This document shows, piece after piece, positions 163 through 43,588 of a DNA stretch of 51,603 bases. Within the stretch, counting starts at the first letter, position 1; every line of letters starts with the position of its first letter. The DNA comes from a virus. The position numbers and the translations under genes were made by a program. Location of the stretch: positions 1 through 51,603 of the IMG/VR virus record IMGVR_UViG_3300043395_002760; one strand, given 5' to 3'. Under the pieces are notes generated by a model. The model was not told the origin of the DNA. It saw nothing but the letters and a program-made list of their open reading frames with translations, and made no database searches.

Positions 163-218
163 TGCAGATACGCTGAAAAACCCGCCAACGGTCTCCAGCG
201 TCCTATTATGAAGATACA

Positions 219-258
219 GGAGGGGGTCGGCAGGGACGCTCTCCCTCTCCCCCCCTCC
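219..258 (+). terminator. Nested G/C-rich hairpin, possible terminator or processing site
   Basis: GGAGGGGG (219-226) pairs perfectly with CCCCCTCC (251-258). Inside the loop AGGGA (232-236) pairs with TCCCT (242-246). There is no T-run after the stem, so intrinsic termination is uncertain. It lies between two small genes. Confidence 0.45.
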
Positions 259-276
259 AAATTCACTTTCAGGATC

Positions 277-2389: not shown

Positions 2390-2530
2390 ATGGCAAAGCG
2401 TCCTAGTTTCACTGGTGCTCAAAAGATCGAATCCAAGCCGAAGAAGTCTCGTCAAGGAAGGGGTCATCACACCAAACTAAGTGCTACGTCTCGCAATGGG
2501 CGCAATAAGCGTTATAGGGGACAAGGTTGA
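2390..2530 (+). CDS. Very basic 46-aa protein
   Basis: ATG 2390 to TGA 2528-2530 encodes a peptide starting MAKRPSFTGAQKIESKPKKS and ending KRYRGQG. It has a strong Shine-Dalgarno AAGGAG about ten bases upstream. About a third of residues are Lys, Arg or His and only one is acidic, so it probably binds nucleic acid or an acidic partner and is disordered. The gene stops exactly where the next begins (TGA directly followed by ATG), suggesting coupled translation. I recall similar short basic proteins in this place in cyanophages but know no function for them. Confidence 0.7.
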   Translation: MAKRPSFTGAQKIESKPKKSRQGRGHHTKLSATSRNGRNKRYRGQG

Positions 2531-3143: not shown

Positions 3144-3443
3144 ATGTCAAATCAACACGAAAAAAATCAAGAGATTATGCGCGAATTGTGGCAAAATGAG
3201 GATTTAAGTGATTTGGAAGCAAATCCTTCCACTTTTGAAGGCAATCATTTTGCTCACGGGTCAGGTTTTCATAAAGCAAGAATGCTTCGTGAGATAAATC
3301 ATGATAATGACACCCCAAAACGTCATGATTTCGTGGTTCAAAACGAACTTCATGAGAAAATTCGTAATGATGAGGATTATGATGATTGGGATTATGGAAC
3401 TGAACCCACATATGGGAAAAAATGGGAGAATAACCTGGAATAA
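3144..3443 (+). CDS. Hypothetical acidic protein, 99 aa
   Basis: The 99-residue product is highly charged and hydrophilic, with many Asn, Asp, Glu and His, including NEDYDDWDYGTEPTYG near the C terminus. No hydrophobic core or membrane helix is visible, so it may be flexible or need a partner. No family is recognised. It follows the ATP-grasp-like gene by 7 bases and precedes the late promoter of the baseplate block. The antisense frames over this gene are only shadows. Confidence 0.6.
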   Translation: MSNQHEKNQEIMRELWQNEDLSDLEANPSTFEGNHFAHGSGFHKARMLREINHDNDTPKRHDFVVQNELHEKIRNDEDYDDWDYGTEPTYGKKWENNLE

Positions 3444-3447
3444 TACA

Positions 3448-3455
3448 CATAAATA
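3448..3455 (+). promoter_or_regulatory. Late promoter motif CATAAATA before gp25
   Basis: CATAAATA matches the T4 late -10 consensus at seven of eight bases and lies 22 bases before the gp25 start. It is the last clear motif before 18897, so it may drive a transcript of about 15 kb. Confidence 0.65.
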
Positions 3456-3477: not shown

Positions 3478-3879
3478 ATGCCAGTTCAACGGGTAAGTAG
3501 AGGATTTAAAGATTTAAGCATGTCGTTTTTGGCAAATCCTGTCAATTATGACCTAATTGCACTCAAAAATGAGTCTGCAATTGCACGTGCTGTCAGAAAT
3601 CTGGTCCTCACTCAACCCGGAGAACGGTTTTTTAATGACAATTTGGGTTCCAGAGTGAGTGCTGCACTGTTTGAGAACATGGATGAAATTACTGCTGGAT
3701 TTATTCAGCAGGAAATAGAAGATACAATCAATACATATGAACCCAGAGTTAAATTAATTGAAGTTATAGTCTCACCTAACTTCGACAATAATGAATTTAA
3801 TGTGACCGTTTCTTACGAAATAGTTGGAATTGACGTTCCGGCACAACAATTAACATTTGCTCTTCAGCCAACTCGATAA
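3478..3879 (+). CDS. 25: Baseplate wedge subunit gp25
   Basis: At 133 residues the length equals that of T4 gp25 (132). The family signature of gpW/gp25 proteins is clear: a disordered start, FLANPVNYDLIALKNESAIARAVRNLVLTQPGERFF (residues ~18-53), then the NLGSRVSAALFE turn and the beta strand VTVSYEIVG near the C terminus. In T4, gp25 joins gp6 and gp53 in the inner baseplate and its relative in contractile injection systems helps start the sheath. The gene is followed without a gap by gp6, its structural partner. Confidence 0.95.
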   Translation: MPVQRVSRGFKDLSMSFLANPVNYDLIALKNESAIARAVRNLVLTQPGERFFNDNLGSRVSAALFENMDEITAGFIQQEIEDTINTYEPRVKLIEVIVSPNFDNNEFNVTVSYEIVGIDVPAQQLTFALQPTR

Positions 3880-5790
3880 ATGGCACTAGTAAACTTCACA
3901 AATCTGGATTTTGATCAGATAAAATCATCAATCATAGAATATCTGATATCAAACTCAGATTTTTCCGATTATGATTTTGAAGGATCCAATCTGTCAACGA
4001 TTATAGATGTTTTAGCATTTAACACCTATATCTCATCATATAACGCCAATATGTTGAGTAATGAGGTGTTTATTGATAGTGCTACGCTAAGGGAAAACGT
4101 AGTCTCCCTAGCAAAGCAAATAGGATATCTTCCACGATCTAGAAGAGCATCTAGAGCATCAATATCATTTACAGTAGATACTACAGATTCCCCGAACAAA
4201 TCCACCACAATTACCCTCCAGAAGGGTCTTGTATGCACCAGCAACGCCCGTTTCGGATCACAGAGTTATACCTTTGCCATTCAGGATGATGTGACCGTTC
4301 CAGTCGTTTCTGGAGTGGCATCCTTCAATAATGTTTACGTCTATGAGGGGTCATATGTAACCGCAGAATATACTGTTGATGAGAACAATCCAAATCAAAA
4401 ATTTTTACTTGACAATGAGGGAGTTGATACATCATTAATTAGAGTTACTGTATTTGATCCTGGTTCAAATACTGGTGTTAAATATCAACTGTCAAATAAT
4501 TTGATTGATGTAAATTCCACATCAAGAGTTTATTTTCTGCAAGAAATTGCTGATGAAAGATATGAAATTATTTTTGGTGATGGAATTTTTGGAAACAAGT
4601 TGATAAATGGAAGCAGAATTGAAATTTCATATCATGTGTCAAATGGAGAAAGTGGAAATGGTGTTGCCGGTTTCACTTTTAATGGCCGCCTGCGCGATAA
4701 TAATGATACCGTAATCTCTGCAGGAATCTCTGTACTTACCGCAGACACGTCATCAAGATTTGGGACACCAATTGAAAGCGCAGAGTCCATTCGTAGATAC
4801 GCACCAAAAATTTATGAAGCTCATAACAGAGCAGTCACTGCAACTGATTATGAATCAATCATTCCAATCATTTTTCCAGAAACTGAATCAATTTCCGTAT
4901 TTGGTGGTGAGGATCTAAATCCACCACAATTCGGAAAGGTTTTTATTACTATCAAACCAATTAATGGTACATATATTCCATCATCAATTAAAGACAATCT
5001 TAAGAGAACACTTCGTAAGTATTCTGTTGCTGGAATTGTACCGGAGATACTAGATCTCAAGTATCTCTATGTTGAGGTTGATTGCACTGCTTACTACAAC
5101 ACGAATACGAGTTTGAGTTCAAGTGCCGTCCGAACTAAGATCATTAACAATATTGAAAGATATGCAGATTCAACTGAACTGAATCGCTACGGTGCAAGAT
5201 TTAAGTATAGTAAATTCCTTAAGCTCATTGATGATAGTGATGCATCTGTAACATCAAACATAACTACTTTGGCAATGAGAAGAGATCTTCGCATTGCGCT
5301 TGGGAAATATGCTGATTATGAGATTTGTTACGGAAATGCTTTCCACATAAAGAATATTAATGGATACAATATCAAGTCATCTGGGTTTAAGATAAGTGGG
5401 GTTTACGATTTCGTTTACTTAACTGACATACCAAACGCAGATCTGAAAACCGGAAAAATTATATTCTTTAAACTTGATGTTAGTGGTGGTGTTGGAACCA
5501 TAGTTAGAAAGAATGCGGGAATAGTAGATTATGAAAAAGGTGAGATTGTTTTATATCCATTAAATATTATTGAAACCACAAAATTTGATTCCGCAGATTC
5601 AATTGTTGAAATTTCGGTTTCACCAAAATCAAATGATGTCATCGGATTACAGGATCTTTATTTGCAGCTAGATATTAATAACACTTCTGTCAACATGTTG
5701 GCAGATCCGATTACATCAGGATCAGATTTTTCTGGTTCAACCTATACGGTTACTTCAAGTTACTCAAACGGTGCACTCGTCAGACTATAA
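3880..5790 (+). CDS. 6: Baseplate wedge subunit gp6
   Basis: The 636-residue protein is close to T4 gp6 (660). The N-terminal portion (NLDFDQIKSSIIEYLISNS, then NTYISSYNANMLSNEVFIDSATLRENVVSLAKQIGYLPRSRRAS around residues 46-90) is the conserved J-like baseplate region. VTATDYESIIPIIFPE and the FITIKP strand region further on fit the gpJ/gp6 fold. Two gp6 copies per wedge form the iris ring of the T4 baseplate. The start codon follows the gp25 stop immediately and its own stop is 3 bases from gp7, so the three are one translational unit. Confidence 0.93.
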   Translation: MALVNFTNLDFDQIKSSIIEYLISNSDFSDYDFEGSNLSTIIDVLAFNTYISSYNANMLSNEVFIDSATLRENVVSLAKQIGYLPRSRRASRASISFTVDTTDSPNKSTTITLQKGLVCTSNARFGSQSYTFAIQDDVTVPVVSGVASFNNVYVYEGSYVTAEYTVDENNPNQKFLLDNEGVDTSLIRVTVFDPGSNTGVKYQLSNNLIDVNSTSRVYFLQEIADERYEIIFGDGIFGNKLINGSRIEISYHVSNGESGNGVAGFTFNGRLRDNNDTVISAGISVLTADTSSRFGTPIESAESIRRYAPKIYEAHNRAVTATDYESIIPIIFPETESISVFGGEDLNPPQFGKVFITIKPINGTYIPSSIKDNLKRTLRKYSVAGIVPEILDLKYLYVEVDCTAYYNTNTSLSSSAVRTKIINNIERYADSTELNRYGARFKYSKFLKLIDDSDASVTSNITTLAMRRDLRIALGKYADYEICYGNAFHIKNINGYNIKSSGFKISGVYDFVYLTDIPNADLKTGKIIFFKLDVSGGVGTIVRKNAGIVDYEKGEIVLYPLNIIETTKFDSADSIVEISVSPKSNDVIGLQDLYLQLDINNTSVNMLADPITSGSDFSGSTYTVTSSYSNGALVRL

Positions 5791-5793
5791 GCA

Positions 5794-8700
5794 ATGAATG
5801 ATACTAGAATTAAGATAAGTTCAATTCTTGAAAGTCAGCTTCCCGACTTCATAAAAGAGGAATTCCCATTTGCTGAGGAATTTCTAAGACAATATTACAT
5901 AGCTAATGAGTATTCTGGGGGTCCATTAGATCTTCTCCATAATATTGATAAGCATGTATCTCTTGATGCTGTAACAAATGTAGTGAGTTCAACTACACTT
6001 ACATCTGACGTAAGTACCTCAACTGATAGGATCTATGTTGAGTCAACAGGTGGTTTCCCAGATCGTTATGGATTGATTCAGATTGACGATGAAATTATTC
6101 TGTATCAAACTAAAGAATCCACTTATTTTGATGGTTGTACTCGTGGATTTAGTGGCGTTTCGTCTTTGGAATCAAATATTCCAGATGAGTTAATTTTCTC
6201 AGAGACTGTTGCAGCAATTCATGAAAATGAAGCAGAAGTTAAAAATCTGAGTGTCTTATTCTTACAACAATTCCTGACCAAAATTAAGTCACTGATTGCC
6301 CCAGGATTTAAAAAAAGAGAACTTGCAGAAGATCTAAACGAAGGAATATTTCTTTCTCATATTAAAGACTTTTATTCATCAAAAGGAACTGAGGTTTCCT
6401 TTAAAATTCTTTTTAATGCCCTATATGGAAGAAATGTAGATCTAATTCGCCCAAGGGATTTTCTAATTGAACCATCTGACGCAGAATTTAGAATTACAAA
6501 GGATCTTGTAGTAGAGGCGATTTCGGGAAACCCAGAAAAATTATTAAATGCCACCATTTTTCAAGATGAAAATGACTTTATCTTTAGAGCAAGTGGTGCT
6601 GTAACTCAAGTAGAACGTATTTTAAGGGGAGATAAAGAATTTTATATTCTTAGCTTAGACTCCGACTATAATAGAGATATTAACGTATCCAGTGGTACGA
6701 TTGCTGGTACATTTTCAATTCACCCAAAAACCAAAAATATTTCTGAAGCATCTGCCGGAAATACAGTATTAGATGTTGATTCTACAATTGGGTTTCCACA
6801 ATCAGGACAACTCAGAGTAGATCTTGCCAATAGAGCAACGATTTATATCGATTACACATCAAAATCAACAACACAATTCTTTGGGTGTAGTGGAATTGTA
6901 GATAATATCCCAATAAATTCGGAAATTAAACTCCATTCGGTAGGAGGAAAGGAAATCTATGTATATGGATATGGTGGATTAGAGAGAGAAAAAATAGAAG
7001 TTAGGGTAAATGGAGTAATTTCTAATTTAACAATACCAGGAAAACCACCAGTTCAACTTTCACCCGGAGATAGAATTAACATAAAAAGTCTTGGTGAGAA
7101 CCTGACTTCAAAAAAAGCAAATAATTGGATTTTCAATATTCCGGTTGTTTATGATATTTCATCAATATCAGAACCTTCGGGAACATCTTTCATCTATACG
7201 GTTTCTACATTTGACACTCATGATTTTAAAGTTGGAAATCAGGTCACTTTTATTGCAACAGATGGATCCACATTTACGGGTGGATATATTTCATCCATCA
7301 TCAATCTGACTACCGTTCAGGTAACTCAGAATAGTTTGATTCCGAATAAAGATAGAATTAAGTCCATTAAGAATAATTTACTTAAGGCTGCAGTCAATGA
7401 TCCGGTTAGATATCCAGAAATTGTACAATACAATACAAATATACAAAATGTTTATTGTAGCGAAACTGACAAGGATGAATTGTATGTAACATCTGCTTCA
7501 ATTCCAACATATCTTGGTCAAAATTTGGATCTTGAAGACAGATCAATAGAATTTTCTGGATCATTTAATGGAAAGGATCTAGTTTTCCAAACAGAACATT
7601 CATTTTATACTGGAGATTCTGTAATCTATAGACCAGCGAATGATGAGAATTCAATCGCATCTGAGGGGATTTATTTTGTAAGGGTCATTTCTCCCACATC
7701 AATTCGCCTTGCAAAATCACGTGATAATATTTTCAATGCAGATCTAACTGGGGATGATAGTTACTATGTGTCATTCTCTGGAACCATCAATCCTGGATAT
7801 GAAAGTAGAATAGAATTAACCGATTTCTCTTTCAGAAATCTACAGAAACAGCCAGTAGAATCTCAAAGATTAATAAGAAAAATCTCTAATCCAGAATTTG
7901 ATAACTCTGAACACACAACTCCTTCTGGCCAGATTGGTATATTTATCAATGGAGTTGAAATTATCAACTACAAATCCAGAAATTTTGTGTATCATGGTCC
8001 AATTGATGATGTTGCAGTAACTGCCGGTGGAACTGGATACGATATTATTAACCCACCATCACTTATTATAAGTGATCCATCTGGTGTTGGAGCGACTGGT
8101 AATCTATCAATTTCCGGATCATTATCTAGAGTTGATATTCAAAATCCTGGTTTTGATTTCATTGAAGATCCTGTTATTGAATTGACAGGTGGTGCTGGAG
8201 AAGGGGCAAGAGCAATTGCCAATTTAATTGAATTTTCTCATAAAGTATTTTTTAATTCATCATCTGCATCTGGGGTTAATATAACAACCGATGTTATTGG
8301 GTTTTCCACTTATCATGGATTTAGGAATTATGAGCAGGTGATTTATAATCCAGAAAATCAGCAAATTATTAGTGGATTGACAACAAATGCATCATACTAT
8401 ATTTCATTCCCATCTGGACATAATGGCACCAAAATTCTACTTCACAAATCATTATCTGATGCAGCATCCGGAATTAATACAGTATCTTTAGATTCTCTTG
8501 GTTACGGTTTACAATCATTTACATCAACCATTAGGAAGAAAAAAATTGGTTCTATAACCATATCAGATCCGGGATCTGGATATAAAACAAGAAAAGTTAG
8601 ATGTTCTCCTTCGGATATTGATATTACTGCCAATATCTTAAATATAAAATCCCATGGATATAATAGTGGGGAGAAAATTGTTTATTATCCATCAGCAACT

Positions 8701-11700
8701 CCAATTGGGGGACTTGTTTCTGGGACAAGTTACTTTGTAACTGTGGTCAATGAGGATCAGATTAGATTATCATCTATTGGGACTGGAAATACTTCTGCGG
8801 CATTTTATTATCAATCGAAGCAATATGTTAATATAACATCATCTGGATCTGGATATCATGATTTTAACTATGAACCAATTACACTGAATGTCAGAGGTAG
8901 GATTGGTGTGTCCACTGAATCTGGACAGGATTTTAATGCAAAACTTGTTCCGGTATTTTCTGGAGAAATATATGGAGTTCATTTGACTGCCAATGGAACC
9001 AATTATGGTTCATCTGGGATTCTTAATCATAATCGTCAGCCAAATTTCAATATAGTTTCTGGCACAAATGCTCAAATTACCCCAATTATCTCTGGCGGTA
9101 AAATTACAAACGTTGTTATTGCAAATGGTGGAAAGAATTATAATACAAATCCAATTCTAACTGTAGATTCCAAATCTGGATCTGGGGCAAAATTAACCCC
9201 AATAGTTCAGAATGGAGTAATCGTTGGTGTTTCAATTATCGACAGCGGACGTGATTATAAGATCAATGATACTTCAATTACGGTCACAACTACAGGTCAG
9301 GGATCCAAATTCCAGGCAGTGATTAAATCATGGACAGTTGATCTAGTAAAGAGATTGATTGAAAAGAAAAATATAGTCGATGATGATGGAATCATTGATC
9401 AGGGATTGAATTCGGAGATAGGTCTTCAGTATTGTCACGCATATGCACCAAGATCTTTGAGAAAAACTGTGTTAAGTGAGTCCTTTGTCGCAGGACAATT
9501 GACTTATACACCAGATTTGACATTTGCAGATAATGGGTATGAAAAAGATTCCATATCACATTCTCCGATTATCGGATGGGCATATGATGGGAATCCAATT
9601 TATGGCCCATATGGATATTCAGATCCATCTTCTCCAGGATCAGTGAAGAGGATGATTTCTAGTTATGTCACATCAATAGATTCAAATCGCCCATCACAAT
9701 ATCCACTTGGTTTCTTTGTGAATGATTATATCTATGACGCTAGTGGGGATTTAGATGATCATAATGGAAGATTCTGCGTTACACCAGAATATCCAAATGG
9801 AACATATGCATATTTCTGCACAATAGGAAACCTTGCCAATAGCGGCCCATTCAAATTCTTCAGAGAGCCACAATTTCCTTATGTAATTGGAAATACATAT
9901 CACTCAAAGCCAATCGAATTTAATTTCTTAACTGCAAGTAATCAAAATTCCTATGATATTGCGAAACATCGCTTACTAAGAAACGTATCGCCGTATAAAC
10001 TTTTAACTGAAAAAACTTCATATGAATTTTTACCAGGACCAGAAGTATTCAGATCCTCATTTGGCAAAGTAGAGTATATTGGATCCGGTGCTATTGATAA
10101 TATTGAAATTATTGATGGCGGAGAAAACTATTCTTCTGGCGACGAATTGATATTTGATGACTCGGGAACTGATGGTCATGGAGCAGCTGCCGAGATTGAT
10201 CTGATTAATGGTAAGCAAGTATCTCAAATAAGTTTAGCATCTACAGTTACATCCAATATCCAGTTTATTAAGGCATCACCAAATCAACCCTATAAATTTG
10301 TTGGATTTTCATCAACGATTCACAATCTTACCAATCTTGATGAAGTTCAGATTGACATCGAGGGGGAAAAGTCTTCATTTGATACGATAAGATACGATGA
10401 GAATAGACTATTCTTAACATCGGTTTCTGTAGCAGCAACGATTTCTGGAATAACAACGTACCTGAATGTAACTGGAAATCTGGAGTATCCAAATGTTAGA
10501 GAGAATGATATTTATCAATTTGGACAAGAACAAGTTAAAGTTTTAAATATTGATACTTTATCGCAAAGAATTAGAGTTCTTCGCAACCAAAATGGAACTT
10601 CCGGTGTGTCATCACTTCCAGTTGGATTTGCTCTTACGGAAAAATCCAAGAAATTTGGTATTAATTTTGGCATCACAACATCATATGCAGCACAATTGGA
10701 TAAGGAGTATTACTTTAATCCATCAGAATCTGTTGGATTGGGTACACGAAGTGGAGTTGGTATCAACTCAACACTCATCTTTACAAATCCAGGTGCAGGA
10801 ATTACTCAAATAAAGATTCCAACAAGATCAATTTATATTCCAAGTCACAATATTAATACCGGAGATGAGCTTATTTACAGCTCAAATGGTGGACAGGGGA
10901 TTATAGTATCAATAAATGCAGGTGTTTCAACATATGTATTGTCTAGTAACACTAAGGTATATGCTGCTAAGATCACAAATGATATTATTGGTATTGCAAC
11001 CGTAAGAGTTGGATTAGGCACTACGGGATCGTTCGTGGGTCTTGGATTAACTCCAAATGCAAGTCTACTATATTTCACTGGATTTGGAACTTCTACATAT
11101 CACAGTTTCAAAAAAATACAATCAAATCCTCTTATTGGAAGTGCTACGAAGAGAACGGTTACTGTATCTACCGCATCAACTCATGGACTCAATGTTGCAG
11201 ATCAGATCAATCTAACCGTCACATCTGGAATCACAACATCTATTGTTATTAAATACAACTCAACTCACAATAGAATGGTTGCCAATCCAATTGATTTTGT
11301 CTCTGCTGATGTCAATTCAGTCACAGATGAAATTAGGATTCATAATCATGGGTTTGTTACAGCACAGAAAATTATATTCAATTCAACATCATCTCCAGGT
11401 GGTCTAATAGACGATACGATTTATTATGTAATTGTTGTCAATAACAACACAATTAAACTTGCAAATAGTCGTTATGACGCCCTAAATGGGATTAACGTAG
11501 ATATAACATCAGAGTCCATAGGAACTATTTCCCCAATCAATCCACCATTAACGCTAACTAAAAACAGCATCGTTGATTTTGATTTGTCAGATACATCTCT
11601 ATCTTATATACTTGGATTATCAAATCTAAGTGCATTTGAGTTCAATTTATATACTGATGGTGAATTTGAAAATAAATTCCTATCAACCAGATCATCTTCC

Positions 11701-14700
11701 ACATTTGAAGTTACAAAAACTGGAAATATTGGCGTAGATATAGATGCCAAGGTCACTCTATCAATAAACGATGAGGTTCCAAAAATACTTTATTATCTCA
11801 TCGATCCAATCAATCTATCACAAAATACACTCACCGATGTTCCAGTAACTGTTGATAAAGAAGTTTCCGGAAACAATACAATTAACTTGGTCGATAGTCA
11901 ATATAATGGATCATACTTGATTAAAGATGCACCCACCACAACATCATTTGAATTCCAATTCAGAAAAACTCCAGAGGTAAACTCTTATACAATTTCGAAT
12001 GCAACCAATACTTTTATTAAGTATACCACAAATTCTCCAACTGGATTTGGATCTATTGCTTCAATCAAATTAAATTCTGGAGGTAATAATTACAAATATC
12101 TCCCCAAAATATCATCAATTGACTCAGATTTTGGCAAAAATGCAGTTCTAATTGTCAATAGTGATAATATTGGGTCCTTAAATAAGGTCTCATTCTCTAA
12201 TATTGGATATGACTATTCATCAGATGCATCTTTGAGACCTACGACCACTCTTCCAAACATCATAAAAGTAAATCCATCATATTCATTTGAGTCAATTGGG
12301 ATCACATCTTCTGGAAGAAATTATACTATTGCACCAAATCTAATAGTTATTGATACAAAAAATGATACTTATTTGTATGAGGTTGAATTAGATTATAAAG
12401 TTGGCGATACTTCTGTTAATATCATTAGTAATACATCACGTCTTCAGGGAGAACCTAAAATTATTCCAGTTGACAACATTAATGGAACAAAAATTTCGGC
12501 AATTCAATTTAATGATTTGAGCAAGGATGTTGTGGTTTCACTGGCATCCACATATAGTGTTTCATCGCAGTTTCCATTTGCTATTGGAAAGAAAATCCTA
12601 ATTGAAAATACGTCGGTTGGAATTACAACTGAAGATAGATTTGGAAATATTGTAGTTACGCAAACAGGAAAGGGATATAATTCAGCAAATTATAACTACT
12701 CCTTGTTTACAATTACTGATATAGATCCCGATTATGGTGGACTTAATCCATCAATCACATACAATTTGAGTGATTATTTAAGTGGATCAGATGAACCGGG
12801 AACATTCAATTCATTAGAATCGTATGGGAAGGTGATTCTTGAGGAAGAATTCCCCGTGTTTAATTGGACATTGGCAAAGGGAGTATTTTCTCCAGGAGAG
12901 ACCATCATCTCTGGATTAAATGTAGGAACGGTTATTTATTGGGATGATATCAATGAATATTTGAAAGTATCATCCGTTGATAATTTTTATCCTGGTGATT
13001 TCATAACATCCCGAGTTACTGGATTGGAAGTTGAAATTACGGAAGTTTTCACATATGATTCAAATTTTGACATAGGAGCGTCATCGATTGTCACTAAGGG
13101 ATGGAATAGTAATACAGGATTCCTTAATGATACATTACAAAGAATTCATGATAGTGATTATTATCAATATTTTTCATATTCACTAAAATCTGAAATTGAA
13201 ATCGCCAAATGGGATGATGCAGTAAGCAATTTAAACCATACTGCAGGATTTAAAAAATTCAGCGATCTTCAAGTGGAATCAACGATAGTTGATTATACTG
13301 CCGGCATTCAAACATCACAAGGTAATGGTGATGTTCTAGTCTTTGCGGATTTAATATCTGATGTTAATGTGAATACGGTTTATGATTTTGATCTTGCAAC
13401 AGAAACTGTGTTGAATATAGACAATTATTTGAAATCTGATCAAATTCTATTTAAAACCAAAGTAATTCAGGATTATATCCAAGCAGTATCAAATAGAGTT
13501 TTGGTAATTGATGATATTAGCGACGAATTTACGAATGCTGCTGGTATTGAAAATTATGGCGTGGCTGATCGTTTCTCATCTGGCAGAACGAAAAAATATA
13601 TTATGTGGGTTGGAGACAGATCGGTAAACTTTGATAATCAAAGACAGGTACAGTTGATAACTCTTCTTCAATATAATACTCAGGGATATATCAACCAATA
13701 TGGAAAGGTTTATAGTGATGTTGATCTGGGCGATTTTGATTATCGCTATATTGATGGAAATAATGAATTACTATTCTATCCAATTAAATCAGAAGTTAAT
13801 GACTATGAGATGAGCGGACTGTCTCTTGTATTGAATGATTCTGGTGCCACAACAGGATATTATGGACTTGGATGTGTTGATATGAGATCATCGTCCACAA
13901 CCATTCCTGCCGGTGCTGGCGCTGGAACAACCAATAGTGTTGTTGGCATTGCATCAACATATAGAGCAGCGAAGTTTATGATTCAAATATCAAATGATGC
14001 TCAATCATATTTTGAATACAGTGAGGTTTCTATTGTTCACGACAACACCAATATCGTTCAATTAGAATTCAATAATCTGGCATCTTCAACTTCAGAGTCT
14101 GATGTCGGATTGGGGACATATATGGCAAATATCTCCCCATCTGGATTAAATTTGTGGTTTATTCCTAAGAATACTACCACCGTAGATTACGAATTTAATA
14201 TTGATACGATAGCAATATCGGGATCTTCTACTAGTGTTGGTTCAACCATCTTCCCAGGTGCCACTGTTGAAACCTCATACACTTCTATTGCATCCACAAC
14301 CCTCCCAACAAAAGTTGCACAATACACAAGTTTCTATCGAGGTGCTTATTATATTGTTCTTGTCCATGACACTACAAATAATAGATATCAAACATCCGAA
14401 GTTATGGTTACGGATAATGATACTGATGTTCAGATATTAGAATTTGCCACATTGACAACAAACTCTGGATTGGGGACTATAAGTGCTGGCATAACCACTG
14501 CCACCGAATTAACATTTGTTCCAGCACCCGGAATTAATGCAAATGTTAGGGTCATTCAATTTGCACTTGGTCCATCAAGGAGCACAATTCCTGAGAATGA
14601 TCTAAATCTTGGGTCCACATCTACAATCGATTATACGGATGGAACATTCACTGGAACTGAATTGGCCCGCAAGAAATCATTTGATTTATATTATGATGGA

Positions 14701-17700
14701 TATCCACTATTCCAAAAGGAAATTAATCCAGCACAAGATTTAATATTATCAAATTCATCAGTATTTCTACCAAACCACTTCTTTAGTACAGGAGAAGAGA
14801 TTGTTTATAGCCCAGGAGAGACTGGTTCTGCAATAGGAATTGCAACAACTTCAATAGTAGGAGTGGGAACAACAAATAAATTACCAACATCCGTTTATAT
14901 CATTAAAAATGATAATTCATCATTCAAATTTGCAGCAAGTGCTACAGATGCTCTAAACTTCGCAAATCTCACAATTACTGATGTTGGAGTAGGTACGGAA
15001 CATCTCCTAACCTCTATTAGACAAAACAGCAGGTGTATCATTTCCCTTGATAATGTCATCCAATCACCTGTCGTATCGACTGCTATTACATCATCACTTT
15101 CATCACCAGCTTCAATTGCAGCAGAAGTAATTTCTCTGACTGGAATTTCATCATTCTTCGCTGGAGATTTTGCACAGATTGGTAATGAAATTGTTACAAT
15201 TCGTGCGATTGGATATCTTGGTGTGACTAATGACATTCTTGTAAGAAGAGGTTGGTTAGGATCGGTTGCATCTGCACATACTACTGGAACTATCATTAGA
15301 AAGGTGTATGGAAATTATAATATCATTAATAACACAATCCACTTCGCAGAGTCGCCATACGGCAATCTACAACTTGGAGGAACTAGACCAGATGAGCAAG
15401 ATTATGTTGGATTAGATGTTCGTTCATCCTTTAGTGGAAGAACTTTCCTTCGCTCAGGAATTTCTGAAGATCCTTACGCTAAAAATGTAGTTTTTGATGA
15501 TCTATCACAAAAATTTAATGGAATTTCCAGCCAGTTCTCACTTCAAAGTAATAGAAATAATATATCCGGAATTTCTACCGGAAATGCGGTTGTATTACTC
15601 AATAATGTTTTCCAGAATCCACAAAATATTGATTATGCTCTTTCAGAAGTTTCTGGAATTACTTCCATTAGATTTACTGGGGATCGCACTGCAGCAAATT
15701 CTGATGTCAATTCAACATCTCTACCTAGAGGTGGAGTAATTGTTTCCGTGGCAACCACTGAGGGATTTGGATATCAGGCACGTGTTTCTGCAGGTGCAAC
15801 TGCAAGAGTTTCCGTTGCAGGGACAATTCAAACTCTGTCAATTGGAAACACGGGTGGTGGATATAGAGCAAGTTCAGAATATGATATTGTAACATCCATT
15901 AGTCATCCAGTTGGTATTGGATCTACTGTAATTCATATTGCAAATACAGAAGCAGTTATTAATAAACTTGCATATTCCTCAGTTAATAAGATTAGCGTTG
16001 GTGCGGCATTAACTAATGTAACAATTGTAAGTGTTGGTAACACATTCATTAGAATTGGCGTTGGTTCTGGATCATCAATTTCTATTGCGTCAGGAACTCC
16101 CGTTCATATTGAACTTAAGAGTCCAACTGCCGGTCTTGTTAATATCAGTGTTGCAAGATCCGATATTGGAAATGCGGAGTTTGTTGGATTTACAACCATA
16201 GTTGCTGGCAGAATTTCTCCAAATTATGTAATTACAAATCCAGGATCTGGATACACCAATACAAATCCACCACTAGTAATATTTGATGATCCTCTGCCAT
16301 ATAGTAATATTCCACTTCGCTATTCTACATCATCCCCGACAAGTGGACTTGGAACTGAAGCATCTATTGATATTGTTGTTGGAAGTGCATCGAGCGTAAT
16401 TTCATTTGAGATTAAGAATTATGGATATGCTTATGGAAATGGAGAAATATTGACCGTTCCTGTTGGAGGACTTGCCGGAATTCCAACAGATACAACGAAA
16501 CCATTTAGAGAATTCAAACTAACAGTAGAATCAATATCTGCTGATAGTTTCGTTGGGTGGAGTATTGGAGATTTGCAAGTTTTGGATTCAATAGAATCTT
16601 TATTCAACAACGTTGATGTCAACTTCCCACTGTCAATCAATGGAGAAAGAACTAGCATACGTTCTCGCGTTGGTTCAGATGTGCGTGAAGATGCTTTACT
16701 CTTAGTATTCCTCAACAACGTGCTGCAGGTGCCTGGAGAAGCATATCAATTTGATGGGGGATCTACACTAAGATTTTCCATTCCACCAAGATTTGGTGAT
16801 AGATGCTCGATTTTATTCTATAGAGGAACTTCCTCTGTCGATACAATTGATGTTGAAGTTTTGGACAGCATTAAAGTTGGTGATACAGTTACTCTGAATG
16901 ATGGAAATGTCATATATCAAGAAGATGCCAGAATTGTTACTGATATTGTTTCAACAGATGCTGTTACGACCAATATCTATAATGGATCTGGAATTAATCC
17001 AGATCAAACATATGAAAGACCTTTATCTTGGACAAAACAAACTGTCGATCTTATAATAGACGGAGAAGAAATCGGAAAAGATAGAGAACTTTATGAGGCA
17101 AATATATTCCCAACTGCAAAGATTATTAAAGATGTTTCTACAGCATCAACTGAGATTTTTGTTGACAATGTAAAGACATTTTTTGATCACGTTAAGGAAT
17201 ATCCAGATGCGCTGCAAGATAGGCAGCAAGATGTTATAATTCACGAATCAAAATACATAGTTGGTGCATCTGCCACATGCACAGTATCTGGAATTGGATC
17301 CATAACGAAAGTTACCATTACCAATGGTGGAGTTGGATACGAATCTGGAGAAACTCCTCAGATTTCATTTGGAAACATTCCAAATACACGTGCAACAGGA
17401 ACGGCTGGTATTACAACATCTGGTTCTATTGTTAATGCAAACATTTCAAATGCTGGATTGGGTTACTCATATGCTCCTATAGAATCACTTTCTGTGATAA
17501 GTTCTGGATCTGGTTGGCCAAATACTGGATTAGCATATACATTCTCAAATGTGAGAATTAATAATACATATAGCAACGGATATAATGCGATATGTGACAT
17601 AACCATTATAAATGGATCACTATTATCAGTCTCGGTTTCTAATGGAGGATTTAATTATCATGTAGATGATGAACTATATGTAAATGTTGTTAATTATGAT

Positions 17701-18885
17701 GGAACTGATTTGATTCTCAGTTCGCCACTAAATCTAAAAGTATCTTCAATTGCTCCACCACCAGTTATTTTTAGCGAACCATCCTTCAATCGTGAGGTAA
17801 TGTCAGTTTCTTATCAAGGAGACTTTGGTATTATTTCTGGAATTGGAACGACATCATATGCAGGTGTTACTACTGGATTGGTATTTGATTTTGTAATTCC
17901 AAAGAATTCTTTCCTTCGTGATGTTAATGTGAATGGAACGGTTGGAACTGCAACAACAGGAATAAGTGGAATTAAGACTGGATATTATTTTGTCATTCAT
18001 GATTCCAATATAGGAGATTCTGTAATTTCTCTTGAAACAGATAATTCTCCTCTTGGAATTGGAACCACATTCATGAATAACATATTCAAAGTGGAAGCGG
18101 TTTCTATTGCGCGGACAGATGCTCTTGGATTGGGTGTAACATGGGTTGCCAGAGTTACAACTAAAGTTTCAAATTATAACAATTTCCTCACTGGAGTTGG
18201 ACGTAGCACATATTATGGACAATATTCTTGGGGAAGATTGTATAACTTGGAGAGAGTTATTAAGTCAAATATTGGTGCGTATAGAGGAGAAAATCTTCTC
18301 ACATATAGTGAATTTGAAAGCGGGTGGACAAATACCGGGGGTGTCGGTATAGCGCAAACTGAATATATTGCACCATTCTCATCATCCTATGGAACAAAAA
18401 TTACAGCGGCCGCATCTGACACTGGACTATTAAGGGCAACTGCGTCCCTTGTTTCTGGAACAAGTTATACATATAGTGTTTATGTGAAGCCGATTTCTGG
18501 AAATGAAAAGGTGTATTTCGGATCAAATACTGGCACTAGTGTATCAGTATCTCTTGATTTTGACTCTTCAATTCCATCCATTTCAAGCAAAACAGGATCT
18601 ACATCCAACAGGATGCTGATCCCACAAGCAAACGGATGGTATAGAGCATCATTCACATTTAGTGCTACTGCTTCTGCCGCACATAACTTTATTATCTATA
18701 GCGAAACTTCTAACGATAATGTGTTCGCTGTGTGGGGAGCTCAGGTAGAATCTGGAGTAAATCTAACTCAATATTCAAAAGTATCTCATACTGCCGTTAG
18801 AAGAAACACCGCCGTGACTGATGAGAATACATACCCAGTTCTTAGAAGATATAATAATCTTAGATTCAGGGGTTATAAATCATAG
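5794..18885 (+). CDS. 7: Giant baseplate wedge protein gp7-like, 4,363 aa
   Basis: Position between gp6 and gp8 and the conserved start (residues 1-60, ISSILESQLPDFIKEEFPFA) identify it as the gp7 wedge protein. A second conserved block lies at about 155-260 (LIAPGFKKRELAEDLNEGIF, FNALYGRNVDLIRP). T4 gp7 has 1,032 residues; this is over four times longer. The extra mass is modular: an IDDEIILYQ...CTRGFSG module (~75-130), many GGxGY beta repeats (~750-1170), SHGF...TGEKIVYYP type repeats, a YHYH-like segment (~1260-1350), two related domains starting near 2723 and 2848, a second RG module near 3125-3175, and a C-terminal carbohydrate-binding-like domain (~4166-4325). No frameshift is visible. 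A host-contacting role is inference. Confidence 0.88.
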   Translation: MNDTRIKISSILESQLPDFIKEEFPFAEEFLRQYYIANEYSGGPLDLLHNIDKHVSLDAVTNVVSSTTLTSDVSTSTDRIYVESTGGFPDRYGLIQIDDEIILYQTKESTYFDGCTRGFSGVSSLESNIPDELIFSETVAAIHENEAEVKNLSVLFLQQFLTKIKSLIAPGFKKRELAEDLNEGIFLSHIKDFYSSKGTEVSFKILFNALYGRNVDLIRPRDFLIEPSDAEFRITKDLVVEAISGNPEKLLNATIFQDENDFIFRASGAVTQVERILRGDKEFYILSLDSDYNRDINVSSGTIAGTFSIHPKTKNISEASAGNTVLDVDSTIGFPQSGQLRVDLANRATIYIDYTSKSTTQFFGCSGIVDNIPINSEIKLHSVGGKEIYVYGYGGLEREKIEVRVNGVISNLTIPGKPPVQLSPGDRINIKSLGENLTSKKANNWIFNIPVVYDISSISEPSGTSFIYTVSTFDTHDFKVGNQVTFIATDGSTFTGGYISSIINLTTVQVTQNSLIPNKDRIKSIKNNLLKAAVNDPVRYPEIVQYNTNIQNVYCSETDKDELYVTSASIPTYLGQNLDLEDRSIEFSGSFNGKDLVFQTEHSFYTGDSVIYRPANDENSIASEGIYFVRVISPTSIRLAKSRDNIFNADLTGDDSYYVSFSGTINPGYESRIELTDFSFRNLQKQPVESQRLIRKISNPEFDNSEHTTPSGQIGIFINGVEIINYKSRNFVYHGPIDDVAVTAGGTGYDIINPPSLIISDPSGVGATGNLSISGSLSRVDIQNPGFDFIEDPVIELTGGAGEGARAIANLIEFSHKVFFNSSSASGVNITTDVIGFSTYHGFRNYEQVIYNPENQQIISGLTTNASYYISFPSGHNGTKILLHKSLSDAASGINTVSLDSLGYGLQSFTSTIRKKKIGSITISDPGSGYKTRKVRCSPSDIDITANILNIKSHGYNSGEKIVYYPSATPIGGLVSGTSYFVTVVNEDQIRLSSIGTGNTSAAFYYQSKQYVNITSSGSGYHDFNYEPITLNVRGRIGVSTESGQDFNAKLVPVFSGEIYGVHLTANGTNYGSSGILNHNRQPNFNIVSGTNAQITPIISGGKITNVVIANGGKNYNTNPILTVDSKSGSGAKLTPIVQNGVIVGVSIIDSGRDYKINDTSITVTTTGQGSKFQAVIKSWTVDLVKRLIEKKNIVDDDGIIDQGLNSEIGLQYCHAYAPRSLRKTVLSESFVAGQLTYTPDLTFADNGYEKDSISHSPIIGWAYDGNPIYGPYGYSDPSSPGSVKRMISSYVTSIDSNRPSQYPLGFFVNDYIYDASGDLDDHNGRFCVTPEYPNGTYAYFCTIGNLANSGPFKFFREPQFPYVIGNTYHSKPIEFNFLTASNQNSYDIAKHRLLRNVSPYKLLTEKTSYEFLPGPEVFRSSFGKVEYIGSGAIDNIEIIDGGENYSSGDELIFDDSGTDGHGAAAEIDLINGKQVSQISLASTVTSNIQFIKASPNQPYKFVGFSSTIHNLTNLDEVQIDIEGEKSSFDTIRYDENRLFLTSVSVAATISGITTYLNVTGNLEYPNVRENDIYQFGQEQVKVLNIDTLSQRIRVLRNQNGTSGVSSLPVGFALTEKSKKFGINFGITTSYAAQLDKEYYFNPSESVGLGTRSGVGINSTLIFTNPGAGITQIKIPTRSIYIPSHNINTGDELIYSSNGGQGIIVSINAGVSTYVLSSNTKVYAAKITNDIIGIATVRVGLGTTGSFVGLGLTPNASLLYFTGFGTSTYHSFKKIQSNPLIGSATKRTVTVSTASTHGLNVADQINLTVTSGITTSIVIKYNSTHNRMVANPIDFVSADVNSVTDEIRIHNHGFVTAQKIIFNSTSSPGGLIDDTIYYVIVVNNNTIKLANSRYDALNGINVDITSESIGTISPINPPLTLTKNSIVDFDLSDTSLSYILGLSNLSAFEFNLYTDGEFENKFLSTRSSSTFEVTKTGNIGVDIDAKVTLSINDEVPKILYYLIDPINLSQNTLTDVPVTVDKEVSGNNTINLVDSQYNGSYLIKDAPTTTSFEFQFRKTPEVNSYTISNATNTFIKYTTNSPTGFGSIASIKLNSGGNNYKYLPKISSIDSDFGKNAVLIVNSDNIGSLNKVSFSNIGYDYSSDASLRPTTTLPNIIKVNPSYSFESIGITSSGRNYTIAPNLIVIDTKNDTYLYEVELDYKVGDTSVNIISNTSRLQGEPKIIPVDNINGTKISAIQFNDLSKDVVVSLASTYSVSSQFPFAIGKKILIENTSVGITTEDRFGNIVVTQTGKGYNSANYNYSLFTITDIDPDYGGLNPSITYNLSDYLSGSDEPGTFNSLESYGKVILEEEFPVFNWTLAKGVFSPGETIISGLNVGTVIYWDDINEYLKVSSVDNFYPGDFITSRVTGLEVEITEVFTYDSNFDIGASSIVTKGWNSNTGFLNDTLQRIHDSDYYQYFSYSLKSEIEIAKWDDAVSNLNHTAGFKKFSDLQVESTIVDYTAGIQTSQGNGDVLVFADLISDVNVNTVYDFDLATETVLNIDNYLKSDQILFKTKVIQDYIQAVSNRVLVIDDISDEFTNAAGIENYGVADRFSSGRTKKYIMWVGDRSVNFDNQRQVQLITLLQYNTQGYINQYGKVYSDVDLGDFDYRYIDGNNELLFYPIKSEVNDYEMSGLSLVLNDSGATTGYYGLGCVDMRSSSTTIPAGAGAGTTNSVVGIASTYRAAKFMIQISNDAQSYFEYSEVSIVHDNTNIVQLEFNNLASSTSESDVGLGTYMANISPSGLNLWFIPKNTTTVDYEFNIDTIAISGSSTSVGSTIFPGATVETSYTSIASTTLPTKVAQYTSFYRGAYYIVLVHDTTNNRYQTSEVMVTDNDTDVQILEFATLTTNSGLGTISAGITTATELTFVPAPGINANVRVIQFALGPSRSTIPENDLNLGSTSTIDYTDGTFTGTELARKKSFDLYYDGYPLFQKEINPAQDLILSNSSVFLPNHFFSTGEEIVYSPGETGSAIGIATTSIVGVGTTNKLPTSVYIIKNDNSSFKFAASATDALNFANLTITDVGVGTEHLLTSIRQNSRCIISLDNVIQSPVVSTAITSSLSSPASIAAEVISLTGISSFFAGDFAQIGNEIVTIRAIGYLGVTNDILVRRGWLGSVASAHTTGTIIRKVYGNYNIINNTIHFAESPYGNLQLGGTRPDEQDYVGLDVRSSFSGRTFLRSGISEDPYAKNVVFDDLSQKFNGISSQFSLQSNRNNISGISTGNAVVLLNNVFQNPQNIDYALSEVSGITSIRFTGDRTAANSDVNSTSLPRGGVIVSVATTEGFGYQARVSAGATARVSVAGTIQTLSIGNTGGGYRASSEYDIVTSISHPVGIGSTVIHIANTEAVINKLAYSSVNKISVGAALTNVTIVSVGNTFIRIGVGSGSSISIASGTPVHIELKSPTAGLVNISVARSDIGNAEFVGFTTIVAGRISPNYVITNPGSGYTNTNPPLVIFDDPLPYSNIPLRYSTSSPTSGLGTEASIDIVVGSASSVISFEIKNYGYAYGNGEILTVPVGGLAGIPTDTTKPFREFKLTVESISADSFVGWSIGDLQVLDSIESLFNNVDVNFPLSINGERTSIRSRVGSDVREDALLLVFLNNVLQVPGEAYQFDGGSTLRFSIPPRFGDRCSILFYRGTSSVDTIDVEVLDSIKVGDTVTLNDGNVIYQEDARIVTDIVSTDAVTTNIYNGSGINPDQTYERPLSWTKQTVDLIIDGEEIGKDRELYEANIFPTAKIIKDVSTASTEIFVDNVKTFFDHVKEYPDALQDRQQDVIIHESKYIVGASATCTVSGIGSITKVTITNGGVGYESGETPQISFGNIPNTRATGTAGITTSGSIVNANISNAGLGYSYAPIESLSVISSGSGWPNTGLAYTFSNVRINNTYSNGYNAICDITIINGSLLSVSVSNGGFNYHVDDELYVNVVNYDGTDLILSSPLNLKVSSIAPPPVIFSEPSFNREVMSVSYQGDFGIISGIGTTSYAGVTTGLVFDFVIPKNSFLRDVNVNGTVGTATTGISGIKTGYYFVIHDSNIGDSVISLETDNSPLGIGTTFMNNIFKVEAVSIARTDALGLGVTWVARVTTKVSNYNNFLTGVGRSTYYGQYSWGRLYNLERVIKSNIGAYRGENLLTYSEFESGWTNTGGVGIAQTEYIAPFSSSYGTKITAAASDTGLLRATASLVSGTSYTYSVYVKPISGNEKVYFGSNTGTSVSVSLDFDSSIPSISSKTGSTSNRMLIPQANGWYRASFTFSATASAAHNFIIYSETSNDNVFAVWGAQVESGVNLTQYSKVSHTAVRRNTAVTDENTYPVLRRYNNLRFRGYKS

Positions 18886-18924: not shown

Positions 18925-20484
18925 ATGTCTGCCATCATTACTGACCAATTAAGAATTTTGAATGCGAAGACCTTCGTAAACGAAGTTTCCTCCTCCACAA
19001 ATTCATATTACGTTTTTGTCGGATTGCCCAATGCACCCGAGGTTCAATCGAACTGGGATAGTGCTCCACCAGCACCAAAGGACAGCTTTGATGAGGAGAA
19101 TAGTTATTGGGATACGATGATATCCATGATCAAAATCAAACCTGAGGACATTAAGCAGGTCATCAGGAAAAATGAATGGACCTCAGGTGTTACTTACGAT
19201 ATATACCGTCATAACGTAAGCAGAACTAATCCATCCCAACCTTCTGGAGCAACTAGTTTATACTCTTCAAACTATTATGTAATTAATAGTGATTATAGGG
19301 TATATATTTGTTTGAATAATGGACAAGATCCTGAGAATTCGCAGGGCAGACCATCATTGGATGAACCAACATTCACCGATTTGGAACCAAGATCTGCTGG
19401 CAATAGTGGTGATGGATATATTTGGAAATATTTGTATACAATTAGTCCAGCAGATATTGTAAAATTTGATTCTTTAAACTTTATTCCTGTACCAAAAAAT
19501 TGGGAATCAAACACTGACAATGCTTCCATTAGAGAGAATGCCGAAACTAGTGGACAAATAAAAACAATTCTCATTAAAAATCGTGGAGTTGCGCTAGGAA
19601 GTCCAAATGTAACTTATTCAGATGTTCCCATCAATGGAGATGGATCTGGAGCTAAGGCAACTATTGTTATTAACAACGATTCTACAGTTGAAAGTATCAC
19701 CATTTCAAGTGGTGGGTCTGGATATACATATGGCACTGTAGATCTTGCTGCCGGTGGGGTTCCAACAGGAACAACTTCTCCGCAATTTGAGGTTATTATT
19801 CCACCCGCAGGTGGACATGGAGCAGATATTTACAAAGAACTTGGTGCATATAGTGTTCTGATTTATTCCAGAATTTCAAATGACACGCAAAACCCAGATT
19901 TTATTACCGGAAACCAGATTGCTAGAATTGGAATAATAGAATCTCCTCAGGCATACAATTCATCAACTGTATTAACGTCAGAAAAAGCATCCGCTTTAAG
20001 CGCAATTAAATTAACAGGTGCTGGTTATAGTTCAGCAACTTTTTCGGCAGATAGTTTCATCACACAAACAGTTGGAACTGGGCAGACAGCAGTTGGAAGA
20101 GTGATTTCTTATGACCAAGTAACTGGAATTTTAAAATATTGGCAGGATAGATCTCTTGTCGGATTTAATACGAACGGCACTCAGAATTCATCTCCGTCTT
20201 ATGGATTTAATCTGATTGGTTTTACTACTTCAACTTCAGGAAGTGGAAACACAAGAATTTATCAGAATGATGGTATTACATATTTTAATATCGACACAAC
20301 ATTTAACGGTGCGAGTGCGGTCATAAATAATAAGACATATTATCTTGGTCAAAGCTTTGTCAGTGGATTGTCTAATCCTGAAGTAAAACCACACTCAGGA
20401 AATATCATTTATGTTGATAATAGACCATCTATTACAAGATCATCCAATCAAAAAGAAGATATTAAAGTAATTTTGCAATTCTAA
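18925..20484 (+). CDS. 8: Baseplate wedge subunit gp8, enlarged
   Basis: The N-terminal half carries the gp8 signature: ITDQLRILNAKTFVNEV, YYVFVGLPNAP, IKPEDIKQVIRKNEW and YVINSDYRVYICLNNG, then GDGYIWKYLYTISPADIVKF. T4 gp8 has 334 residues and this protein 519. The additional sequence includes a GGxGY-type beta repeat (residues ~210-290, with TISSGGSGYTYG) of the sort seen in its neighbours gp7 and gp14. A more typical C terminus follows (KPHSGNIIYVDNRPSITRSS). gp8 is a dimer in the T4 wedge, binding gp7 and gp10. Its stop is 6 bases from the next gene. Confidence 0.93.
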   Translation: MSAIITDQLRILNAKTFVNEVSSSTNSYYVFVGLPNAPEVQSNWDSAPPAPKDSFDEENSYWDTMISMIKIKPEDIKQVIRKNEWTSGVTYDIYRHNVSRTNPSQPSGATSLYSSNYYVINSDYRVYICLNNGQDPENSQGRPSLDEPTFTDLEPRSAGNSGDGYIWKYLYTISPADIVKFDSLNFIPVPKNWESNTDNASIRENAETSGQIKTILIKNRGVALGSPNVTYSDVPINGDGSGAKATIVINNDSTVESITISSGGSGYTYGTVDLAAGGVPTGTTSPQFEVIIPPAGGHGADIYKELGAYSVLIYSRISNDTQNPDFITGNQIARIGIIESPQAYNSSTVLTSEKASALSAIKLTGAGYSSATFSADSFITQTVGTGQTAVGRVISYDQVTGILKYWQDRSLVGFNTNGTQNSSPSYGFNLIGFTTSTSGSGNTRIYQNDGITYFNIDTTFNGASAVINNKTYYLGQSFVSGLSNPEVKPHSGNIIYVDNRPSITRSSNQKEDIKVILQF

Positions 20485-20490
20485 AGTATC

Positions 20491-23400
20491 ATGCCCCAAG
20501 AATCCAATCTCAACATTTCGCCATATTTTGACGATTTTGATCCCAGCAAAAATTATTATAAGGTTCTTTTTAATCCTGGAGTTCCTATTCAGGCCAGAGA
20601 ACTGACAACTCTACAGTCTGTTTTACAATATCAGACTGAAAGTGTTGGAAAGCACCTATTTAAAGAGGGGTCTGTTGTAATTCCTGGACAAATGCGTTAT
20701 GATAATCCCATATACGCTGTAGAATTGAATGATACTTATAATGGATCTCCAATTTCACTCTATTTTGATAGTCTCCTGAACAAAAAAATCAGGGGATCTA
20801 CTAGTGGAGTTTCTGCGGAAGTAGTGTATCTACTTAAAGCATCAGATTCTGAGAGGGGAAATTATACGATCTATGTTAGATATCTTGAGAGTGGTGGCGC
20901 CGATTTTACAGAGAAGGTATTTACCAGTGGTGAAACTTTGTTGTTGGAGTCTCCATTAACATATGGATCCCTTTCAATTCCATCCGGACAGGGAGTTTGT
21001 GATACTATTTCCACAAATGCAACCTCTGAAGGTTCTTCAGTAGTAGTTGCAAATGGAATTTATTTTGTAAGAGGATTCTTTGCAAATGTTGAGGAGCAAA
21101 GAATTCTTCTGGATCAATATGGAACTAGACCATCTTATAAGATTGGTTTTAATGTAATAGAATCTATAGTTACTGCTGGAGAAGATAGTTCACTATTTGA
21201 TAATGCACAAGGATATTCCAATTATGCAGCTCCTGGTGCAGATAGATTCAAGATCGATCTTGAATTAACTAAAAAAGAACTAACTGATTTAGATACGGAT
21301 AATTTCGTAGAGATTATGCGTGTGGAGAATGGACAACCAACATTCTTTGAGAAAAATACTCAATATAATCTCATCAGAGATGAGCTTGCAAGGAGAACAT
21401 TTGATGAGTCTGGAAATTATTTCGTAAAGCCATTTAGCTTTATTGTAAGAGAGAGTCTTAACGATAGATCAAGAATTAATGGAATATATTTTGAGGGGCA
21501 ATCAACGGTCAATGGAAATACACCAAGTGAAGATAAGATGGTGTATCAAATTGGTCCAGGAAAGGCATATGTAAATGGATATGATGTAGAAACTATTTCA
21601 GCTCGCCTTCTTGACGTTCCAAAGACAAGGACTACCAAGACTGTAAAGGATCAGGCAATAAATTTCAATGCAGGAAATCTATTCATCCTGAATAATGCAT
21701 ATGGTTCACCTGCTGTTGGATTAGGAACAACTGCGACTGTAAGTTTGATGGATTCTCGTATTGGAGCATCCGCACATGTTGCAACTGGAACCACAATCGG
21801 CGTTGCAAGAGTATTTGATTTTGTTCCAGAGTCTGATTATGTTGATGATAAAAGTAGACTTGAACTAAGATTAATTGACATACAAACATATACAAAACTA
21901 AGTCTCACTACACCAATTACCTTAACTACTCCAGCACGTATTGTTGGAAAGAAGAGTAGGGCTGGGGGATATTTGGTGAGCAATGTGTCGAACTCAACGG
22001 ATTTGACACTTTATCAGGTAAATGGAGCATTTTTAGATAATGAATCAATTATCATTAATGGTGTTGATAATGGTAGATTAATTTCAACTTCCACTGATTA
22101 TAGTATCAATGATATAAAATCAGTATATGGAAAGAGTGGAATTTCCACATTTAATGCAGATCTAGTTCTTGGCAAAAAAAGTTATATTGCCAAGCCAGGA
22201 ACGTCATTCCAAGTTACACTTGGTGTTGGAAATATATCAACTATTTCATCTGGATTAGAAAACACGTTTACAAATATAGTTAAAATTGGCGATATCATCT
22301 CATATCCTTCATCAACATATACCGGGGATCCTGTCTATAATAAAGTAACAAGTATTGCCGCTGATGGAACTTCATTCACAGTTACTGGTGTAACAACAGT
22401 AACTGGAATATGTAATGGCACTCTTCCAACATCGACAAGAAATATTCAGAATATAATTAAGATTGCACCATCGGTCTCAGACAGATCATCTCTTCTCACA
22501 AGATTGGGTGCAAATAATGTCGTATCCTTGAGCATTGAAGAAGGCGAGGTCGTACAGAGACGGTTATATTCAAATATTTCTGTATCTGGAAACTCACTTT
22601 CAATAACAATTGATGCAAATGATACTGATATTTACTTTGAATCATTTGACGAAGATAGATTTGTAATCACATACTCAAACGGTTCAATTGAGCCAATGAG
22701 ACGGGATAAATACAATCTTTCTGCAAATGGAAAGGTTTTGACTTTCTACGGACTTACTGTTGCAAGTGGAACTGCAGATGTAATCACGACCGTTAAAAAC
22801 TTAAAGCCAAATTCAAAAACTAAAAAATTACAAAAGGTCAATACCTTAGTCATTAATAGATCATCAGAAGCATCTTCCGGAATTGGAACCACAACTCTCA
22901 ATGATGGATTGACCTATAATAATGTATATGGAACTAGAGTTCAAGATGATGAAATTTGTCTGAATGTTCCTGATGTTGTAAGAGTTCTGGCAATATATGA
23001 ATCAGAAGATACATCAGATCCATCTCTTCCATATTTACAATTATCTGCATTTAGTGGACCAACCAACAATAACGTAGATTTTACAATTGGTGAGTGGATT
23101 ACTGGATCATCTACTGGAGCCACTGCAATCATTGTCGCCAGAAGAGACACTGATAAATTGGAGTATGTGTACTTAAATAGCTTTAAGTTCAGTGTAGATG
23201 AAGTTATCAAGGGGAAAGAGAGCACGACTCAAGCAACTGTAGTGGCAATTAGTGCTGGATCCAAAAACATAACTAAAAATTTCTCAGCAGATACTGGTCA
23301 GAGAGATACTATCTATGATTATGGAAGAATTATTAGAAAGAAAAATGTAATTGCACCAAAAAGAAGAATAAAGGTTGTATTCCAAAATTATACTATTGAC

Positions 23401-43586: not shown

Positions 43587-43588
43587 TT

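Follow-up and report, generated by a model that had tools for sequence, protein, structure and literature searches.

The window, which is the whole 51,603-nucleotide stretch of the virus record that was analysed, contains a giant gene that probably encodes the gp7 wedge subunit of a marine cyanophage of the T4-like type, with a large peripheral arm of all-beta structure attached to it. The product is a real and conserved giant wedge protein of an already known type, and its layout, with a split core and an added domain near the C-terminus, is worth recording. By its motif and profile matches to T4 gp7, the gp7 core is present, divided by a large insert at a point equivalent to T4 residues about 840-865; both ends of T4 gp7 have no counterpart in the protein.

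The reading frame runs without interruption from an ATG through 4,363 codons to a product of 473 kDa, in agreement with the original prediction of a single 13-kb gene of 4,363 residues, and a frame this long would stay open by chance, given the base composition, with a probability of about 6e-138. The gene order is gp25 (3478), gp6 (3880), gp7 and gp8 (18925), and the gp6-gp7-gp8 slot was found in about 100 related loci. Residues 2-3376 match the 'baseplate wedge subunit' profile of PHROG 2885 (profile length 4,179, E=0). The source record is a 51.6-kb IMG/VR virus contig of the T4-like cyanophage type, with a major capsid protein about 80% identical to those of the Synechococcus phages S-B05 and S-B43. 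An error of assembly or frame that fused separate genes could be suspected in such a contig, and the ORFs of some relatives are split; we give this practically no credence, since 49 other loci encode orthologues of 3,681-5,195 aa and three close relatives (L091-L093) match at 72-76% along the available gp7 parts, the odd C-terminal domain included. An artefact origin was rejected, being contradicted by complete isolates, which have single ORFs of 3,884-5,195 aa, and by the full-length alignment of the orthologues. The features of the gene and its neighbours are listed in Table 1.

Table 1 Features of the giant gp7 and adjoining wedge genes. Positions are those of the window, aa those of the giant gp7; outer boundaries of the core halves, insert and extension are approximate.
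Feature	aa	Position	Strand	Basis or remark
gp6 baseplate wedge, presumed gp7 partner		3880..5790	+	PF21379, PF21871; phrog_219
Giant gp7	4,363 aa, 472.9 kDa	5794..18885	+	uninterrupted ATG ORF, gp6-gp8 slot
gp7 core, first half	1-320	5794..6753	+	short-gp7 alignment; T4 gp7 in PDB E=4e-8
Insertion of ~95 residues in first core half	64-157	5983..6264	+	gap in all aligned short gp7s
Motif i, core DFYSSKGTEVSFKILFNALYGRNVDL	184-217	6343..6444	+	equals T4 gp7 725-758
Insert of 2,056 residues	321-2376	6754..12921	+	motif spacing, AF2, repeats; all-beta families A, B, D
YHYH domain inside insert	1252-1343	9547..9822	+	Pfam PF14240 E=2.3e-24
gp7 core, second half	2377-2545	12922..13428	+	match to OC gp7
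Motif ii, contains YYQYFSYSLKSEIEIAKWDDAVSNLNHTAGFKKFSD	2446-2494	13129..13275	+	equals T4 gp7 about 861-889
C-terminal extension of 1,818 residues	2546-4363	13429..18882	+	missing in MA01; separate ORF in B23, L021
Family C, three ~128-aa tandem repeats	2595-2949	13576..14640	+	self-matches to E=2e-13
Two-ORF break point in B23 and L021	about 2930-2985	14581..14748	+	homologous position
Genus-specific inserted domain	4167-4340	18292..18813	+	RcGTA head-spike / E217 gp45-like
gp8 baseplate wedge		18925..20484	+	PF09215 E=1.3e-16; phrog_438

The part shared with T4 gp7 corresponds to T4 residues about 646-904 and to nothing else of that protein; T4 residues 1-645 and 906-1032 had no counterpart in the window protein (hhalign E=0.72 and 0.53). 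A profile built from the window N-terminus and its relatives reached T4 gp7 in the PDB at E=4e-8, the next unrelated match standing at 0.58, and a profile of 21 short gp7s reached T4-type gp7 there at E=1.7e-10 and 1e-8; T4-type gp7 chains were the only significant PDB matches of the core profiles. On T4 gp7 itself, the strongest match of the short-gp7 profile covered 649-840, and a further one 865-904. Motif i aligned with T4 gp7 725-758 at E=1.6e-7 by hhalign and at E=6.7e-12 by iterated profile. The second core block bears a YYQ-FSY...W...V...HTAGFKKF motif, the counterpart of T4 861-889; the direct match of this motif ii to T4 gp7 is weak (E=0.0026 to 0.053; 0.016 by iterated profile), and the motif has the same order and spacing in short gp7s, whose alignment with T4 includes this part. 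Block 2451-2500 of the core, 62% identical among giants, belongs to the more conserved blocks, and profile self-comparison detected no repeats within the second core half (aa 2377-2545). The insertion in the first half contains one copy of repeat family D (67-116 self-matching 313-366).

Short gp7s of 400-1,030 aa, including those of environmental contigs, occupy the same slot and bridge T4 and the giants. The short proteins of Ochrobactrum phage OC (631 aa) and Stenotrophomonas YB07 (503 aa) share the core start, the motifs and the slot with the window protein and align with it in separate blocks, OC gp7 6-184 corresponding to window 7-288 (E=6e-13) and OC gp7 189-290 to window 2401-2512 (E=6.5e-11). 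They differ from it in motif spacing (98-437 against 2,216) and in having no large C-terminal extension. Iterated profiles of motifs i and ii, run over all fetched loci, gave a spacing of 106 in T4, 98-121 and 263-437 in short gp7s, 1,615 in MA01, 1,864-2,337 in cyanophage giants (window 2,216) and 2,720 in Syn9, with the motifs in the same order in the window, the short gp7s and T4. T4 gp7 (1,032 aa; PDB 5hx2, 5iv5) is like the window protein in its core at ~646-904, its motif order and its gp6-gp8 slot, but has 645 residues before the core and 127 after it, whereas the window protein has 2,056 inside and 1,818 after. Since short gp7s start at the core, these N-terminal 645 and C-terminal 127 residues of T4 look T4-branch-specific rather than defining.

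The window protein thus has what marks a gp7: the first core half, the second half after it, and the place between gp6 and gp8. The core profiles, the motif pair and the slot uphold the gp7 identity proposed in the original prediction. Its further claim that the conserved gp7 ends are kept fails, the T4-like part being aa 1-320 and the internal 2377-2545; retention of both ends was dropped as an explanation when the terminal 450 residues of giants matched T4 gp7 only at E=0.62. A location of the whole shared part at the N-terminus was likewise abandoned after motif ii had been located at 2,446-2,494.

Public records label the giant gene gp7, a label that the motif evidence supports at the level of sequence. 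Two papers state otherwise: Sullivan et al. listed gp7 in the non-cyanophage core (PMC3037559), and Zaragoza-Solas et al. reported it to be absent from cyano- and pelagimyophages, with VrlC in its stead (PMC7029224). Our results offer a sequence-level correction, namely that gp7 exists in cyanomyophages with its core divided; they also place the insertion point precisely, at T4 gp7 about 840-865, and supply size intermediates. The published replacement by VrlC could instead mean that the giant is a fibre or receptor-binding protein with a borrowed gp7-like segment, the wedge role having moved to VrlC (20491-28281, DUF4815), and in line with this the homologue in Syn9 bears the annotation 'putative fiber' and the chain contains YHYH and head-spike-like domains. 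We consider this improbable: both core halves are retained in every giant that covers the region, with the identity noted above for block 2451-2500; slot and order match those of short gp7s that hold little else; the gp6 and gp8 partners adjoin and are conserved; and the DUF4815 gene sits beside gp7, not in its place.

As a gp7 wedge subunit, the window protein is of ordinary length for cyanomyoviruses, in which a giant gp7 is the norm. It ranks fifth by length among 50 complete cyanophage orthologues (ORFs of >3,600 aa from isolates and viral contigs, window included; median 4,025 aa), and a tblastn search with its first 600 residues matched 466 phage records, nearly all from cyanophages. Genes in the same slot encode 5,195 aa in P-SSM2, 4,307 in P-TIM68, 4,156 in S-SM2, 4,067 in both Bellamy and SynMITS9220M01, and 3,884 in S-CAM9; lengths computed from annotated coordinates are 3,048 aa in S-PM2, 3,328 in S-RIM44, 4,446 in P-HM1, 6,076 in Syn9 and 6,603 in P-RSM4. 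Because such sizes are normal in this virus group, a length of 4,363 aa is unsurprising, and the rarity implied by the title of the original prediction gives way to a protein that is standard in cyanomyoviruses; proof that this length is common had been named there as refuting the idea, and the rank of 5 in 50 and the same-slot genes of up to 6,603 aa supply it. The protein combines the full-length profile match and the length of ~3,700-5,200 aa that characterize giant gp7 (PHROG 2885). It resembles the other giant gp7s of the Kyanoviridae in slot, length class, module order, split core and conserved C-terminal motif, and differs from them in an added domain at 4167-4340 and in the stretches 3351-3450 and 3901-3950, which are rare in the others. 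Relative to T4 gp7, each copy has 354 kDa of extra mass, which comes to about 2.1 MDa in total on the assumption of six copies, as in T4.

The added chain is largely modular. Profile self-comparison of the window gp7 gave 69 matches at E<1e-5 and 130 at the looser cut of E<1e-3, against none in the reversed control at either threshold, and repeats cover 2,269 of its 4,363 residues; raw blastp self-comparison found no repeats, the families being detectable only by profiles. Growth by stacked modules had been predicted and is confirmed by these self-matches, although the geometry differs: instead of more than 3,000 residues between kept ends, 2,056 lie in the core and 1,818 after it. Copies of family A lie near 594, 841, 934, 1679, 1833 and 2974; those of family B, with G-x-G-Y signatures, at 735, 1054-1102, 2075, 3325, 3465 and 3820; the tandem copies of family C at 2595, 2706 and 2831; and those of family D at 67, 313, 1572 and 3125. 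Family B modules are also present in gp8, gp14 and the 2,596-residue DUF4815 protein, and therefore one building block serves several virion proteins. Structure prediction, which had been suggested as a check, gave a confident all-beta AF2 model for aa 300-1400, a chain of beta domains with pLDDT 83.9 and pTM 0.70. Among viral predictions, a fold search with this model found Bellamy gp7 (TM 0.80) and other cyanophage proteins. The same search in the PDB returned no match at E<=0.001, and for this reason the position and function of the arm are what we infer.

Relatives differ in how the extension is attached. The gp7 of MA01 has the insert and no extension, its chain ending after motif ii. Judged by its length of 1,937 aa, ORF122 of S-CREM2, a cluster C counterpart, probably has the same arrangement of an insert without an extension; this protein was found in virions by mass spectrometry, with 91 unique peptides and 27.2% coverage (PMC10665884). 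In B23 and L021 the chain is encoded by ORF pairs (2845+1081 aa and 2921+1105 aa), with stop and start codons coupled at the homologous break. The gp7 genes of S-SSM7 and S-SKS1 are split too, the C-terminal part of S-SSM7 being a separate ORF. In S-SKS1, four consecutive ORFs (707, 1571, 1062 and 592 aa; L007:15983-28369) cover most of the giant; their N-terminal pieces lack annotation in the record, and a natural split and sequencing errors are both possible.

The split genes, which in B23 and L021 have coupled codons at a homologous place, would fit a polyprotein from which cleavage near residue 2,930-2,985 releases gp7 proper and a second, peripheral protein. Such processing seems unlikely to us: among the 43 loci of the giant clade in which both neighbours can be seen, 38 have the extension fused in a single ORF, and the split genes show no more than that the link is optional. 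Some relatives (B23, L021, S-SSM7) do without an intact chain, and the dispensability of the covalent link in these three speaks for a peripheral role. In a gp6 tree of 116 loci, in which the root is drawn only, the giants form one clade with a support of 92. The lone 'short' gp7 inside this clade, that of L088, is a giant gp7 broken into two frames. A single clade of giants fits a single origin of the gp7 expansion.

The domain at 4167-4340 ends about 25 residues short of the C-terminus. The three close relatives L091-L093 carry it at the same place; it is absent from the 49 other orthologues, which have no aligned residues at 4201-4300, and tblastn found no match to it in phage records. Profile searches match the domain to the RcGTA head-spike fibre Rcc01080 (6tb9, E=1.7e-4), E217 gp45 (8env_K, E=1.1e-3), 9b45_v of another phage ('gp46 Baseplate wedge 2', E=3.3e-3) and the tail protein family phrog_5939 (E=1.2e-8). 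With a low-confidence model of the C-terminal region as query (pLDDT 68.6, pTM 0.37), Foldseek placed E217 gp45 (8env_K) first by probability among the local fold matches, with 1.00 over 117 columns at E=0.05; besides this short E217 gp45 match, only chance-like long alignments were obtained in the PDB. Pfam returned FNG for the domain, below the cut-off and in two relatives only. Rcc01080 and E217 gp45 share a domain homologous to window 4167-4340, and their parent proteins differ from gp7. The ligand of RcGTA head-spike fibres is capsule polysaccharide (PMC7296036, PMC10218006). In E217, gp45 completes a (gp44)2-gp45 triplex as its third chain and anchors the tail fibre (PMC10329688). A contact role of the window domain is likely on these grounds, although polysaccharide binding is known for the RcGTA head-spike fibre (PMC10218006) and would apply to the window domain by homology alone.

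We propose that the giant gp7, by virtue of its demonstrated homology, most likely joins a pair of gp6 chains in every one of the six wedges. The core equivalent to T4 about 646-904 would hold gp7 in the wedge. The core loop at T4 about 840-865 is inflated by ~2,056 residues of beta modules with a YHYH domain among them, and the core is followed by ~1,800 residues more. This extra chain would most likely point away from the wedge as an articulated arm, widening the baseplate and offering docking and contact surfaces for fibres and host; in this genus, the RcGTA head-spike-like domain would add a probable point of contact with polysaccharide. The peripheral or adsorption role suggested in the original prediction is plausible, and the extra domain favours it in the genus. 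In keeping with a peripheral role, fibre-connector genes are annotated next to gp7 both in S-SSM7, where gp7 is split, and in P-TIM68, where it is fused. A bolder possibility, which we hold only tentatively, is that the cyanomyovirus wedge initiator has itself turned into the adsorption apparatus, with six gp7 arms, each longer than 2,000 residues and with a still unsolved fold, taking on the work done in T4 by peripheral baseplate proteins, and with genera re-aiming it via sugar-binding-like domains near the chain end. We found no solved cyanomyovirus baseplate containing a giant gp7.

Several neighbouring genes are of interest in their own right. The 2,596-residue DUF4815 protein (20491-28281) is encoded right after gp8, and its S-SM2 equivalent bears the name VrlC. 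A gp7 repeat module recurs at residues 1975-2068 of this DUF4815 protein. In the neck protein gp14 (29532-30929), a module at 186-366, standing after the gp14 N-terminal part, is shared with gp7 992-1167 and 3789-4007 (E=4e-8). A 410-residue protein (33155-34387) has an Mtd_N domain, the N-terminus of the major tropism determinant (E=3.7e-8). Between the portal and downstream structural genes lies a TTG-start ORF of 286 residues with a DUF5661 domain (43583-44443). Finally, a tandem duplication (34754-35437 and 35458-36144) comprises ORFs of 227 and 228 aa that are 71% identical, and their N-termini resemble the tail-fibre family phrog_17885.
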